From Clostridiales bacterium (lineage in GTDB: Bacteria; Bacillota; Clostridia; Christensenellales; DUVY01), in NCBI GenBank assembly GCA_012840805.1, contig DUVY01000027.1:1-42892 (forward strand): DNA of 42,892 nucleotides, read 5' to 3'. Shown piece after piece: positions 29,979 to 37,189 of this stretch. Both the position numbers and the translations under genes were made by a program. Numbering within the stretch: the stretch's first letter is position 1; the number at the start of each line of letters is the position of its first letter. The notes beneath the pieces are model-generated. The model made no database searches, had not been told where the DNA came from, and saw nothing but the letters and a program-made list of their open reading frames with translations.

Positions 29979-31190
29979 TCAAACGCGTTTATTTTTCTTT
30001 TTTTCCAATTGAAGTTGCCTTAATAAATTAAGCGCCTCCAAATGTTTTCTAACCGCCGCGGCTGTTATCCATTTTTTAGCGGCTTTTATATCTTTGGCGA
30101 CCCCTTCGCCTTTTAAAAATCTCAATCCTAATTGATATTGAGCTTCAACATTGCCGTTTTCGGCGGATTTTTGAATAAAAAAGACAGCTTTGCTAATGTT
30201 TTTGGTAACGCCCAGCCCGTTTTCATACAAATACGAAAGTTTTAGTTGCGCCAAAGCGTCTTTCTTTTTGGCCGCCTCATAATACCACCTTGCCGCCTCG
30301 GCATAATTTTTTTCAACGCCTATGCCGTGCTGAAAACAATAAGCCGCGTTGCATTGGGCGGGTATATGGCCTTTTTGCGCCGCCTTGATAAACAAGCTAG
30401 CGGCGTTCTCATAATCTTTTTCAACTCCTTTTCCGTAAAAATAACAAACCGCAAGCGCGAACTCGCCATCGGCGTAACTGTTGCGCGCCGCTTGCGCATA
30501 CCAATAAACCGCGCCCTTATAATCTTGATTTACGCCCTGTCCTAATTCATAGCATTCGCCCAAAGCTAACTGCGCTTTTGGGTAATTATTTTGAGCGGCT
30601 TTGCAATACCAATAGACCGCTTTTTTATAATCCTTTTCCACGCCGTATCCTGCTTTGAAAAAGTCGCCTAGATAAGTTTGGGCTTCGGGATAGCCTTTTT
30701 CGGCAAGCTGCGCATACCAATAAGCCGACATAACCGCGTCTTGCGGAATATCTTTGGATTGATTATATAATGTCGCGAGCTTAAATTGCGCGTCGGCATA
30801 ATCCTGACGCGCGGAGGGCTTATACCATTTTATAGCCTCGTTTATGTTTTTTTCTGCGCCCAGCCCCAACTCGTATAAAATGCCCAAATGAAATTGCGCC
30901 AAAGCGTCGCCCGAGATCGCGGCTTGTTTGAGCCAGTCATGCGCCTTTTGATAGTTTTGTTTAATACCTTGTCCGTTTTTATAGCAAATACCCAAACGGA
31001 ATTGGGCCTCTTTGTTGTCTTGCTTAGCGGCCAAAGAATACCAATAAACAGCTTTTTTATAATCCTGCTTTACGCCCTCGCCGTTATAATAACAATTTCC
31101 GATCTTAACTTGCGAGGGCGCGTCGCCCAAAAAAGCCTTATCAAAGGTTTTTTTTAATTTTATGGATATTTCTTCGCCGCGATATAACAA
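29979..31190 (-). CDS. Sel1-repeat protein
   Basis: A 403-residue solenoid built of about ten 36-residue Sel1-like (TPR-type) repeats from about residue 20 to 385. The recurring pattern is AQ-x2-LG-x2-Y-x2-G-x-GV-x2-DY-x-KA-x2-WY-x2-AA. The fourth repeat is degenerate (YNQSKDIPQDAVMSAYWYA), and the last one fades into a Lys-rich tail. There is no signal peptide or membrane helix, so it is probably cytoplasmic. Sel1 proteins mediate protein-protein contacts; the partner is unknown. The likely start is TTG at 31190-31188, with a weakly placed AAGG upstream. It lies opposite to all neighbours, where dgkA and cdd often sit between ybeY and era. Confidence 0.85.
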   Translation of the reverse strand: MLYRGEEISIKLKKTFDKAFLGDAPSQVKIGNCYYNGEGVKQDYKKAVYWYSLAAKQDNKEAQFRLGICYKNGQGIKQNYQKAHDWLKQAAISGDALAQFHLGILYELGLGAEKNINEAIKWYKPSARQDYADAQFKLATLYNQSKDIPQDAVMSAYWYAQLAEKGYPEAQTYLGDFFKAGYGVEKDYKKAVYWYCKAAQNNYPKAQLALGECYELGQGVNQDYKGAVYWYAQAARNSYADGEFALAVCYFYGKGVEKDYENAASLFIKAAQKGHIPAQCNAAYCFQHGIGVEKNYAEAARWYYEAAKKKDALAQLKLSYLYENGLGVTKNISKAVFFIQKSAENGNVEAQYQLGLRFLKGEGVAKDIKAAKKWITAAAVRKHLEALNLLRQLQLEKKKNKRV

Positions 31191-32371: not shown

Positions 32372-33127
32372 TTGCGAAAAAAGCTGATAATTTTATTTTC
32401 TATTTTGACCTTTTTGGCTGTTATGATAACGCTCAACAGCACGGTCTTTAGCGTAAAAAATATCTCTGCGATAATCTCAAACGCCGATGACGCCCCGCTA
32501 TGCCAAAAAGTCAAAGACAGCGCCCAAATAGAGCCCCAAAGCATATTTTTTCTTGACGAGTCCAAGATAATACAAAAAATCACAGAGAGCGTCCCCGAGG
32601 TTAAGGTAATAAAACTAGAAAGAAAATTCCCCGACAAACTCATAATTCACGCCAAAAAACGCGCCAGAGTTTGTTACATAAAATATGAAAATGTGTTTTA
32701 TATCATCAGCGAAGAGCTTACCGTAATAGACATAATCAATACCCGCCCTGTTAATCTAGCCGAATTATTTGCCCAAGACGATATTGATATGAGTAGCGCC
32801 CAAAAAGGTCATGCGCTCGCGGCGCACAAAACCGCTCAAACAGATATTACTAATCTTTTTGGCTGTATCAAAAACATAGGGCAAGAGTATTTTGATTTGA
32901 TTCAAAAAATTTATTATTTCAGAAAAAGCAACGACATATACCTAAAAACAACCTCGGGCGTTTTTATACATCTAAGTTATACAGACAAGCTTCAAGAAAA
33001 AGTCCAAATAGCGTTTTCGCTGTATAATCACACGCCGCTATACCGAGCAAACGGGGTAATTTGCGCGTATATCGACACCGAAGGCAATCTAAAAGCCTCT
33101 TACCGACCCGAAGAAATCGAGTTTTAA
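32372..33127 (+). CDS. ftsQ: FtsQ/DivIB-like cell division protein
   Basis: A 251-residue protein with one N-terminal membrane helix (about residues 4-24, KLIILFSILTFLAVMITLNS) and an extracytoplasmic POTRA-like domain. The FtsQ pattern is visible: QSIFFLDESKIIQKI, VPEVKVIKLERKFPDKLII, KKRARVCYI and FYIISEELTVID. A second beta-rich region follows. FtsQ/DivIB recruits and regulates the septal peptidoglycan machinery. The start codon is TTG at 32372, with GGGG at 32359-32362 nine bases upstream. It precedes the ftsA-like and ftsZ genes. The assignment rests on the fold pattern and neighbours. Confidence 0.75.
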   Translation: MRKKLIILFSILTFLAVMITLNSTVFSVKNISAIISNADDAPLCQKVKDSAQIEPQSIFFLDESKIIQKITESVPEVKVIKLERKFPDKLIIHAKKRARVCYIKYENVFYIISEELTVIDIINTRPVNLAELFAQDDIDMSSAQKGHALAAHKTAQTDITNLFGCIKNIGQEYFDLIQKIYYFRKSNDIYLKTTSGVFIHLSYTDKLQEKVQIAFSLYNHTPLYRANGVICAYIDTEGNLKASYRPEEIEF

Positions 33128-33161: not shown

Positions 33162-33191
33162 TTGACTTAAAACCTCGTTTCAATATATAAT
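33162..33191 (+). promoter_or_regulatory. Promoter of the ftsA-like gene and ftsZ
   Basis: TTGACT (33162-33167), 18 bases, TATAAT (33186-33191); 29 bases to the ATG at 33221. Confidence 0.65.
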
Positions 33192-33220: not shown

Positions 33221-34327
33221 ATGAGCAAACACAAAGCGGCGATATTGTCGATTGACTCTTCTAACATTACGGTATTGATTGGAAGCAGAAGCGTCAACAA
33301 CACTTTTAGCATAAGCGGCGTGGGAGAAGCGGCTTATGACGGCTACACTAACGGCGAGTTCGTGGAGCCTAGAAAACTAGCCGACAGCGTTTTGGAAGCA
33401 TTTGACGCCGTAAAAAACCAAAGCAACCCTATTGATAAAATATTCGTGGGCGTTCCCGCGGATTTTTTAGAATGCTTGGTAAAAGATGTTAATTTGTCGT
33501 TTCCGCGCCCCAAGTCGATAAAACCGTCCGATATAGACAGGCTTTTTGACGAAGGCGCGACCGTATTAAGCCGCGAATACAAACTTATTAACCGTTCGCC
33601 TATATATTTTGAAAACGACGGACTAAAAACCCTAAAATATCCCAAAAGCAAGACATCCAGAATAAGCGCCAAAGTCAGTTATATTTACGCCAAAAAAGTT
33701 TTTATAGAAATAATAAACGCTATTTTGGAGATTGCGGGCATTGCCGACGCGATATATTTGGGGTCGCCGCTATGCCAGTATTTATATCTAATAGAGGACA
33801 AGGCGGCTGAAAAAATATCGATTATATTGGACATTGGGCACATCGCGTCCAGCGTTGTTTGCGCCCAAGGCGAAGGCATAACATCGTTGCAAAACTTTGC
33901 CTCAGGCAGCGGATTTTTGACAGTGATTTTGATGGAAGGGCTTGAGATTACATACAGCCAAGCCGAAACATTAAAACAACAGCTAGTATTGACTTTGGAC
34001 CCGAGCGACAACGAGCGATATATCATTGACGAGTATTCGGCGGCGGTATCGGCAAAAAAGGCCAACGAGCTAGTCATAGAAGGCTTGTATAATATGGCCG
34101 AGACTATCGCCGAAAACATTGAAAAAGCGGCGATTCATTTTGACGAATATACTTCGGTATATCTAACGGGCGGCGAAATATGCAATATGCGAGGAGCAAA
34201 AGATATTTTTGAAAAAGTATTGGGAACAAGCATAGAGATTTTGAAACCATCGGCGCCCATGCTTGACAAACCGCAATTTTCCCAAATCGCAGGATTATTG
34301 GATCTTGCGCTGACTCATACCAAATAG
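33221..34327 (+). CDS. ftsA: FtsA-like protein with degenerate nucleotide-binding loops
   Basis: A 368-residue actin-fold protein with an FtsA-like layout, including the extra 1C (SHS2) subdomain at about residues 70-180. FtsA normally tethers FtsZ filaments to the membrane. Here the phosphate-1 loop reads LSIDSSNITVLIG where FtsA has a DIGTSK-type loop, and phosphate-2 reads LDIGHIASSVV where FtsA has a DIGGGTTD-type loop. The adenosine-side TGGE motif (VYLTGGEICNMRGAK) is kept. The C-terminus stops at LLDLALTHTK without the usual amphipathic membrane helix, and the length is 40-60 residues short. AAGGA lies six bases before the ATG. It sits directly upstream of ftsZ, 27 bases away. Naming it FtsA is inference from position and fold; a PilM-like relative is less likely here. 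Confidence 0.7.
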   Translation: MSKHKAAILSIDSSNITVLIGSRSVNNTFSISGVGEAAYDGYTNGEFVEPRKLADSVLEAFDAVKNQSNPIDKIFVGVPADFLECLVKDVNLSFPRPKSIKPSDIDRLFDEGATVLSREYKLINRSPIYFENDGLKTLKYPKSKTSRISAKVSYIYAKKVFIEIINAILEIAGIADAIYLGSPLCQYLYLIEDKAAEKISIILDIGHIASSVVCAQGEGITSLQNFASGSGFLTVILMEGLEITYSQAETLKQQLVLTLDPSDNERYIIDEYSAAVSAKKANELVIEGLYNMAETIAENIEKAAIHFDEYTSVYLTGGEICNMRGAKDIFEKVLGTSIEILKPSAPMLDKPQFSQIAGLLDLALTHTK

Positions 34328-34354: not shown

Positions 34355-35494
34355 ATGACCAATTTTGACGATTTGACCGCTCCTGTATGTAAAATCAAAG
34401 TGCTAGGAATAGGCGGAGGCGGCGGCAACGCGATAAACAGAATGAAAGCGGTAGATATCAAGTCAGCTGAGTTTATATCTATCAACACCGACTTGCAGGC
34501 GCTTAGGATGTCTAAGGCGGATATCGTGCTCCAGATTGGCGCCAAGCTTACCAAAGGTTTGGGCGCGGGCTCCGATCCTGAAATCGGCAGAAGAGCCGCC
34601 GAAGAGAGCAGGGACGCCATAGAAGAACTAATAGCGGACGCCAACTTAGTGTTTATCACGGCGGGCATGGGCGGCGGCACAGGCACGGGCGCGGCTCCCG
34701 TTATCGCCGAAATAGCCAAGAAAAAGGGTATCTTGACGATAGGCGTTGTTACCAAGCCTTTTAGCTTTGAGGGAAATGTGCGCATGTCTAACGCCGAAAA
34801 GGGCATACAAGAGCTAAAAAAAGTAGTAGATACTTTGTTAATAGTTCCCAACAACAAACTCTTGCAAGTGTTCCCCAAAGGCACGCCTATGGTAGAAGCG
34901 TTCAAATACGCCGACGATGTGTTAAGGCAGGGCATTCAAGGCGTAACCGACCTTATCGTAGTGCCTTCCCTTATCAACTTAGACTTTGCAGATGTCTTGA
35001 CAATAATGAAAGACAAAGGAATGGCGCATATGGGCATAGGCGAGGGCAGCGGCGAAAACCGCACAATTGACGCTGTCAAAAAAGCTGTTTACAGCCCCTT
35101 GCTTGACACCACCATAGACTATTCCACAGGCGTGTTAATTAACATATTCGGCGGAATGGATATAACGCTTGACGAAGTAAACGAGGCAGTCGAGCTTGTG
35201 AAAGAAGTCGCCGACAAAAACGCCAATATTATCTTTGGCGCGGGTCTGGACGCTTCCTTAAACGGCAAGATAGTGGTAACCATAATCGCCACTGGTTTTG
35301 ATAAATCGGTTTCTTCTTATGCGCCCTCGGGCAAAACGGGGTTTTACAGCGCGCAACCCGACAAAAAGATTTCTATAGAGCCTTTCAAAAAGGCTGAAAA
35401 CTCGGCGGCGGCAGAAACCTTTATATCCAAAATCAATCCAGACCCCGACAACGAAGACATTCCGCTTTGGATAAAAAAACATTTTAAAAAATAA
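34355..35494 (+). CDS. ftsZ: Cell division protein FtsZ
   Basis: The tubulin-like GTPase that forms the Z-ring. Its 379 residues include [13 protein letters not shown] at the N-terminus, NTDLQAL, the tubulin signature [10 protein letters not shown] at residues 107-116, [22 protein letters not shown], a short linker of about 45 residues, and the C-terminal partner-binding peptide [17 protein letters not shown] lies 12 bases before the ATG. It forms a unit with the ftsA-like gene and is closed by a terminator. Confidence 0.97.
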
Positions 35495-35550: not shown

Positions 35551-35592
35551 TGACAAAGAGCGAAATATTTTTTAGTTTTGGGCATATATAAT
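35549..35592 (+). promoter_or_regulatory. Possible spoIIGA promoter with Spo0A-like boxes
   Basis: TATAAT at 35587-35592 lies seven bases before the spoIIGA ATG. Upstream are TTTGACA (35549-35555; reverse complement TGTCAAA, one change from the 0A box TGTCGAA) and GAGCGAA (35558-35564, matching only its CGAA part). In B. subtilis spoIIG is a Spo0A-activated sigma-A promoter with unusual spacing. The match here is weak. Confidence 0.3.
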
Positions 35593-35598
35593 CGGACT

Positions 35599-36444
35599 AT
35601 GGAAATTTACATAGAGTATGTAATCTTAGACAATTTTTTTATCACGCTCGCGATTTTGATTATTACTTCTAAATGTCTGAATATAGACATAATTTGGCAT
35701 CGTATTATTTTGGCGTCTAGTTTTGGAACAAGTTGCGCGGTTTTATTTCCATTAATTAATATCCATAATATTTTATTAATTGCCCTAAAAGCCGTAAGCG
35801 GCGCGCTTATTTGTATGATAATTTTAAAAAAACTAAGCATAAAAATGTTTTTTCTTGTCTTTGCGACTTTTTTGGGCGTTACGTTTTTTTTGGGCGGAAT
35901 GAGCGTAGCCGTATTATATATGTTAGGGCAAAATATCCACAGCGCGTTCAAAATCAATTTTTATAACGATTATCCCATTGGCGTCATTATAGCGAGTTTG
36001 GTTTTGGCTGTTTTTTTCGCTGTTAGGTTTTTTATTACGACTTACCGCGCCAAACAGCTGCGTCCCTTTGTAAGAAAGATACAAATTTTTTACCAAGACA
36101 AATCTATCAGCCTTAACGGTCTGATAGACAGCGGCAATAATCTTTATGACCCCGACAGCAATCTGCCCGTAGTAGTGGTCAATCAAAAAACGCTTTACTC
36201 TCTTTTAAACGACGAAAGTATTGTTAGTCTTGCCAAGGGTCAAAAACTCAACCTAAAAAGCGCTAAATTTATCAAATATGGGACAGCCTCGGACACAAGC
36301 CAAATGTTAATTATAAAACCCGACAAAATTTTGATATATTCGGGCGGCAAAGTGAATACCATATATGATGTAATGCTTGGATTTGCCCAAAACATTATCG
36401 GGGGACAAACTTATGAAGCGCTTATTCATCCGGCATTAATCTAA
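35599..36444 (+). CDS. spoIIGA: Sigma-E processing peptidase SpoIIGA
   Basis: The membrane aspartic protease that removes the pro-sequence of sigma-E after asymmetric septation. The 281-residue protein starts MEIYIEYVILDNFFI, typical for the family. It has about five hydrophobic segments to residue 155 and a C-terminal protease half with the catalytic GLIDSGNNLYDP at about 175-186. VVVVNQ and a late IGGQTYEALIHPAL follow. I use the ATG at 35599; no ribosome-binding site precedes it and a -10-like box is only seven bases upstream. It lies 31 bases before sigE, its substrate gene. Confidence 0.92.
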   Translation: MEIYIEYVILDNFFITLAILIITSKCLNIDIIWHRIILASSFGTSCAVLFPLINIHNILLIALKAVSGALICMIILKKLSIKMFFLVFATFLGVTFFLGGMSVAVLYMLGQNIHSAFKINFYNDYPIGVIIASLVLAVFFAVRFFITTYRAKQLRPFVRKIQIFYQDKSISLNGLIDSGNNLYDPDSNLPVVVVNQKTLYSLLNDESIVSLAKGQKLNLKSAKFIKYGTASDTSQMLIIKPDKILIYSGGKVNTIYDVMLGFAQNIIGGQTYEALIHPALI

Positions 36445-36475
36445 TTTTTTGTAAAATACATTGGAGGTCATCGTT

Positions 36476-37189
36476 ATGTTCTTATTTAATTTGGTAGCAA
36501 AAATTTTGGAAGAGTTATTTGGCGAAAAATGCGATAACTACTTAAATTACATATACGGCAGCGAATCTTTGCCATTGCCTATGGACATAGAAGAAGAGCG
36601 CGCCGCGTTAGAAAGATTGGAAGCGGGCGACCAAGAAATCAAATCCAAGCTAATAGAGCGAAACCTAAGACTTGTCGTCTATATTGCCCGAAAATTTGAC
36701 AACACAGGCGTGGAAGTGGAAGACTTAATAAGCGTGGGCACGATAGGGCTTATAAAAGCCGTCAATTCTTTTGATGTAAGCAAAAAAATAAAATTGGCTA
36801 CTTACGCTTCCCGTTGCATAGAAAACGAAATCCTGATGTATCTTAGGCGCATTGTCCGCCTAAAAAGCGAAATATCGCTAGACGAGCCCTTGAATGTGGA
36901 TTGGGAAGGCAACGAGCTTTTATTGTCCGATATATTGGGAACGGAATCCGACCTTGTCTATAAAAATATAGAAACATCGGTAGAAAACGACCTTTTGTGG
37001 CAAGCCATAAAAAAACTTAACGACCGCGAGCAGATAATTATGCAGTTAAGATTTGGGCTAGGCGGCAAGACGGAAAAAACTCAAAAAGAAGTAGCCGATA
37101 TGCTGGGTATCTCTCAATCTTATATCTCAAGGCTTGAAAAGAAAATTATCTTCAGACTTAGAAAAGAAATGTCCAAACAAGCCCTTTAA
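36476..37189 (+). CDS. sigE: Sporulation sigma factor sigma-E (pro-form)
   Basis: The mother-cell sigma factor of early sporulation, 237 residues with a pro-sequence of about 27 ([18 protein letters not shown]...). The processing region [10 protein letters not shown] resembles the B. subtilis site YYIGGSEALP. Region 2 has [33 protein letters not shown] and [19 protein letters not shown]. Region 4 has the helix-turn-helix [21 protein letters not shown]. The start is the ATG at 36476 after TTGGAGG (36461-36467); the in-frame TTG at 36461 is part of that ribosome-binding site. The spoIIGA-sigE order is standard. The sigG gene that often follows is absent. Confidence 0.96.

Follow-up and report, generated by a model that had tools for sequence, protein, structure and literature searches.

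An FtsA ortholog with altered nucleotide motifs and no membrane helix in a Clostridiales genus, with SepF as a candidate tether of the division ring

Results

The ftsA locus

The window analysed here, a stretch of 42,892 nucleotides from a Clostridiales genome, carries the gene order era, ftsQ-like, ftsA, ftsZ, spoIIGA and a sporulation-type sigma factor, where the names era and sigE come from position and from reading of the sequence. Such neighbours around ftsA and ftsZ are the usual Firmicutes arrangement. The features of the locus were as follows.

32372..33127, + strand: FtsQ-like protein with a POTRA domain; about 4 residues are cytoplasmic
33162..33191, + strand: sigma-70-like promoter TTGACT-18-TATAAT between ftsQ and ftsA, a consensus match only (11/12 positions)
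33221..34327, + strand: ftsA, encoding an FtsA ortholog of 368 aa that lacks the membrane helix and has changed nucleotide motifs
33242..33271, + strand: phosphate-1 region ILSIDSSNIT, residues 8-17, with S for acid 10, D for Gly 12 and N for Lys 15
33827..33862, + strand: phosphate-2 region LDIGHIASSVVC, residues 203-214; a normal variant for the order
34082..34084, + strand: residue 288, Gly in place of a conserved Arg; E. coli R300 by alignment
34163..34180, + strand: adenosine motif LTGGEI, residues 315-320; GGG to GGE
34313..34327, + strand: C-terminus THTK-stop, where relatives carry KKGFFxKLFxK
34355..35494, + strand: ftsZ; its C-terminal peptide of 11 residues does not differ among the three species of the genus
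35578..37189, + strand: spoIIGA and a sporulation-type sigma factor, by domains (sigE by position)

The ftsA start codon is ATG, preceded by the ribosome site AAGGAA, and ftsZ follows 27 nt downstream. Since the putative promoter sits between ftsQ and ftsA, ftsA and ftsZ are probably carried on one transcript. A Sel1-type repeat protein is encoded at 29979-31190 on the opposite strand (-), between the ybeY-like and era-like genes.

Identity of the gene as ftsA

In its usual form FtsA is an ATP-using cell-division protein that links the division ring to the membrane. The sequence-only reading had assigned the gene to the ftsA position, and its place directly upstream of ftsZ together with an end-to-end FtsA alignment bears this out. 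TIGR01174 matches the protein from residue 9 to 360 (profile positions 5-369 of 371) with 59.9 bits and E 2e-16, a score below the curated cut-off of 175.85 bits, and it matches 47/47 relatives. The best structural matches of the window protein alone were FtsA structures. A profile of 47 orthologs matched the FtsA structures of Vibrio, Xenorhabdus and E. coli over the full length (E 6e-51 to 1e-50), S. aureus FtsA at E 2e-42 and Thermotoga FtsA at E 2e-27; some species names of the matched structures were taken from PMC7613929. The same profile matched PilM at E 4e-16 over a partial length and MreB at E 4e-10 in the C-terminal half only, so that FtsA was the strongest and the sole full-length match. 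The predicted layout with a 1C (SHS2-type) subdomain in place of actin 1B was also recovered, being covered by the full-length alignment, though Pfam SHS2_FTSA gave no match to the window protein itself and matched 31/47 relatives.

Orthologs of ftsA were found in 59/61 genomes of the near set, its own included, by protein search and in 377/396 genomes of the order by profile search, and ftsZ adjoins ftsA at every examined locus across the order that holds both genes. The weak PilM and EutJ matches might be taken to mean that another actin-fold family (PilM, EutJ or MreB type) took over the ftsA position. PilM, like FtsA, is actin-like in fold and has a domain where 1C sits, but its match is partial and weaker and its operon is a different one. 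The family profile hits FtsA structures far better (6e-51, full length) than PilM or MreB, and the adjacency to ftsZ holds across the order; these comparisons already refute such a takeover, which we regard as hardly credible.

A second, canonical ftsA, which would have changed the reading of this gene, was absent from the window genome (93.9% complete), where the other TIGR01174 matches were four MreB genes and DnaK. Judged by alignment and gene order, the window gene is by descent the single FtsA of its genus. Second profile matches in genomes of the families f15, f19 and f28 were considered as extra FtsA copies and rejected; they cover domain II only and are MreB-like. Three of the mreB paralogs of the window genome (1.7 Mb) lie in tandem near a Spo0A-like response regulator (G000:C29:7500-10700), and the fourth adjoins a maf-like gene on contig C135.

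The nucleotide pocket

Residue 10 is D/E in 100/105 other orthologs and residue 12 is G in 93/105, and the window protein has S and D at these positions. The two other species of the genus read SIDSSR and SINSSR in phosphate 1; the change is therefore not a sequencing error. The earlier claim that phosphate loop 1 deviates was thus right: LSIDSSN is really altered, the alteration is common to the three species, and no profile alignment restores the canonical form. The companion claim that phosphate loop 2 is degraded did not hold. Across the order, residue 207 is Y in 69, H in 18 and F in 11 of 108 proteins, D/N at 204 and G206 are invariant, and DVGYxST-type loops are the normal form, with DIGH within their range. 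The corresponding loop of Thermotoga FtsA, which was crystallised with ATP-gamma-S (PMC7613929), is NLGYNFTG, and that of S. aureus FtsA is also non-canonical (DIGEDVTQ).

Two further changes had been overlooked in the sequence-only reading, one in the adenosine GGG and one at R288. At position 319 almost every relative has G; the three species of the genus have E/A/E (GGE, GGA or GEE). The sister genus of the same family has phosphate 1 LDFGSGK, adenosine TGGG and SLLVKLLNKIKKK. Six family-conserved pocket positions were changed in all three species, while phosphate 2 (D204, G206), G317 and most structural positions were intact in the window protein. By a crude count, changed residues were not enriched in the pocket (6/20 pocket against 16/61 other conserved positions), so the case for an eroded pocket rests on which residues changed. 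By these residues, the window protein shows erosion of its pocket in phosphate 1 and in the adenosine motif. The absence of ATP binding had been stated earlier as a fact; what the protein displays is motif loss, from which we infer that ATP binding may be gone. An AlphaFold model made from two sequences was uninformative (pLDDT 33.5).

Phosphate-1 erosion recurs in the order, partly separately from helix loss, and f28 retains phosphate 1. All but one of the f15 genomes examined have Arg at the phosphate-1 glycine, keep FtsA and mostly keep its helix. Most f15 genomes (loci L237-L256) carry DIRSSE/DVRSSE as phosphate 1 and mostly GEG for the adenosine GGG, with the membrane helix usually intact, which makes f15 a candidate for a family-wide pseudo-ATPase FtsA.

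The C-terminus

In most relatives the protein closes with a basic amphipathic stretch, KKGFFARLFGK for example. FtsA of the three species in the genus stops 3-4 residues past the last core helix, with stop positions that agree, as expected from the earlier statement that a C-terminal amphipathic helix is missing. The last 18 residues of the window protein have a hydrophobic moment of 0.28, and a scan for another strongly amphipathic terminal segment in this protein found none, the best windows lying inside core helices. Readthrough of the stop would add VFLRRIKKF up to the ftsZ ATG, which looks amphipathic, but the two other species have nothing similar, and this stretch is explained as a by-product of the ribosome site.

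About 130 FtsA proteins of the order were read. Helix loss is recurrent, the trait changing at least nine times on the FtsA tree; the cut-offs for amphipathicity were fixed after inspection, and the frequencies of helix loss are not unbiased because helix-less genomes were sampled deliberately. Helix-less FtsA was also found in g41 and part of g17 (family f15) and in many of the f28 genomes read. In f15/g17 the FtsA of G019, G144, G157, G192, G245 and G322 (L036, L147, L149, L249, L251, L252) has no membrane helix, and the tail is eroding within this genus, where G276 retains SSSFFGSLFK. The genomes are metagenome-assembled, and the window genus has three members in the collection; the same losses are present in all three, and the sister genus is intact.

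Selection and the contact with FtsZ

For the two closest species of the genus dN/dS was 0.131/1.14 = 0.115, an unsaturated pair, the pairs with the window species being saturated in dS; the intact sister genus gave 0.114/0.89 = 0.128. The ftsA frames are full length in all three species. The dN/dS of about 0.12 matches the sister genus with its intact FtsA, so ftsA is not decaying, and the window ftsA lineage is under purifying selection.

In known FtsA, subdomain 2B holds the site for the FtsZ tail. Position 288 was aligned by profile with the Arg of the E. coli IEPR motif (R300 by counting), which we take to be an FtsZ-binding residue, and it is G/G/S in the genus; with this Arg lost, FtsZ binding could be weaker. 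Within the genus 2B is the most conserved subdomain (58/77 invariant, 75%, against 182/286, 64%, elsewhere; p 0.06, with subdomain borders transferred by eye), and it is the least conserved one in the sister genus. The FtsZ C-terminal peptide (last 11 residues) is identical in all three species. The conserved 2B and FtsZ peptide fit, if indirectly, a contact between FtsA and FtsZ that is retained and re-tuned.

SepF and other tethers

Some Firmicutes have both FtsA and SepF. The search of the rest of the genome for sepF, which had been proposed as a check, found it outside the window (G000:C114, PF04472, 75.9 bits), and each of the three species in the genus encodes SepF. The SepF N-terminus MG[QR]YNDFLFKG is kept in the genus while the linker drifts. 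In the window species it reads MGRYNDFLFKG and is conserved and weakly amphipathic (combined score 0.84); the scores in the genus (0.84-0.86) are the weakest among helix-less genomes and below the 0.95 cut-off. With SepF start codons chosen by rule and score thresholds fixed after the data had been inspected, an N-terminal amphipathic score of at least 0.8 was reached in 20/20 helix-less FtsA genomes with readable SepF and in 25/40 helix-bearing ones (raw Fisher p 0.001), a difference that was not significant after ancestry correction. There are 3-5 independent contrasts for this link, too few for it to reach significance, and all informative ones go in one direction. Several FtsA-helix-bearing families (L083, L088, L090, L162, L163, L167, L171, L189) have a SepF that has seemingly lost the amphipathic helix at its N-terminus, which mirrors the situation in the window genus.

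A SepF profile search of three near-complete f15/g17 genomes with helix-less FtsA (G019, G157, G192) detected no SepF. Genomes with neither anchor mean that SepF is not a universal replacement, and some other Z-ring tether should exist in f15/g17. A search for EzrA as an alternative tether gave sub-threshold matches only. The FtsQ-like protein, named earlier as a partner anchor by its position, turned out to be a poor candidate; it starts with MRKK and enters the transmembrane helix at once, with about 4 cytoplasmic residues before it. SepF is the better candidate. Once FtsA has been removed, B. subtilis can still form an active Z-ring and divide by means of FtsZ and SepF (PMC11790237), and FtsA depletion is rescued by SepF overexpression (PMC8178401).

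Discussion

The comparison with other FtsA proteins shows what is particular to the window genus. The FtsA of the sister genus and of the rest of the order has in common with it the full-length homology, the adjacency to ftsZ and the DVGY-type phosphate 2, but they keep D/E-x-G in phosphate 1 and, mostly, the C-terminal amphipathic helix, and the window FtsA has neither. S. aureus FtsA (3wqt/3wqu/3wt0) and T. maritima FtsA (1e4f/1e4g/4a2a/4a2b) have the same domain order and likewise a non-GGG phosphate 2. Unlike the window protein, S. aureus FtsA has a canonical phosphate 1 (DIGSSSV), and the Thermotoga protein has nucleotide bound at least in 4A2B. Judged by these motifs, it is in the window genus that the membrane helix and the phosphate-1 and adenosine motifs have both gone. 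Without the helix and with an eroded pocket, this protein probably does not act as an FtsA that is membrane-bound and switched by ATP.

An FtsA without a membrane anchor requires that another protein holds the ring to the membrane, and this protein is most likely SepF. We consider it about evenly balanced that the window FtsA is a soluble, probably nucleotide-uncoupled protein that acts on FtsZ, with SepF as the tether. Once SepF was able to carry the tether, the FtsA helix may have been lost and the pocket may have eroded. For pneumococcal FtsA it has been proposed that ATP binding releases the C-terminal helix and promotes polymerisation (PMC5832921), and the window FtsA would no longer undergo this switch. 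It would still bind the FtsZ tail through a re-tuned 2B interface, SepF would tie FtsZ to the membrane, and FtsA would reach the ring through FtsZ. Held on FtsZ tails in the cytosol, its 1C and 2B subdomains may organise FtsZ or recruit later division proteins, as a scaffold. The FtsZ-SepF minimal divisome (the B. subtilis deletion strain and archaea) resembles this proposal, as the Z-ring is tethered there without membrane binding by FtsA; FtsA is removed or absent in those systems, whereas the window genus retains an altered FtsA under selection.

Other explanations have to be weighed against the soluble FtsA with SepF as tether. The protein could be an ordinary FtsA with drifted motifs, which still binds nucleotide and reaches the membrane through a partner or a non-helical patch. 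Its core fold aligns throughout, phosphate 2 and G317 are intact, the S. aureus and Thermotoga loops are non-canonical too, and most f15 genomes have Arg for the phosphate-1 glycine yet keep FtsA. Against this, the phosphate-1 acid and glycine are lost together, with Asp/Asn at the glycine, the adenosine GGG is changed as well, six family-conserved pocket positions differ in all three species, and the protein offers no other strongly amphipathic terminal segment outside its core helices. We therefore judge an ordinary FtsA unlikely, though it keeps more weight than a mere remnant, decaying or dispensable and held solely by its operon position. The loss of both hallmark features would suit a remnant, and FtsA can be dispensable where SepF occurs (PMC11790237); full-length frames in three species and a dN/dS like that of the intact sister genus make it very improbable.

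It is also conceivable that FtsZ itself is the anchor, with its C-terminal peptide forming a basic amphipathic membrane helix that makes the FtsA helix unneeded. The basic-hydrophobic FtsZ ends of the window genome (35459-35491) and of G046, G286, G340 and G349 look like the membrane helix at the FtsA end of relatives. Within the genus the peptide does not vary, the helix-less g41 genomes independently have LPLFMKKLFKK, LPAFMKKLFKR and LPAFMRKLFRK, and Odinarchaeota are reported to have an FtsZ that carries a membrane helix itself; the Odinarchaeota paper also cites Mycoplasma and chloroplast cases. However, helix-bearing f15 relatives have nearly as hydrophobic FtsZ ends (LPPFVRRLLGKKK), the pattern was noticed after the fact, and the same peptide must bind partners as well. 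An FtsZ anchor appears to us quite improbable.

For the order as a whole, we tentatively suggest, at somewhat less than even confidence, that FtsA has repeatedly ceased to be an ATP-switched membrane tether and become a soluble, nucleotide-independent cofactor of FtsZ, the anchor role passing to SepF or, where both anchors are lacking, to another tether. FtsA function is usually regarded as bound up with ATP binding and the C-terminal membrane helix. Anchoring is separated from the other roles of FtsA in a lineage that has dispensed with both features and still holds FtsA under normal purifying selection. Such a lineage would be a natural test of what 1C and 2B contribute, and of the way in which the FtsA and SepF anchors take over from one another.
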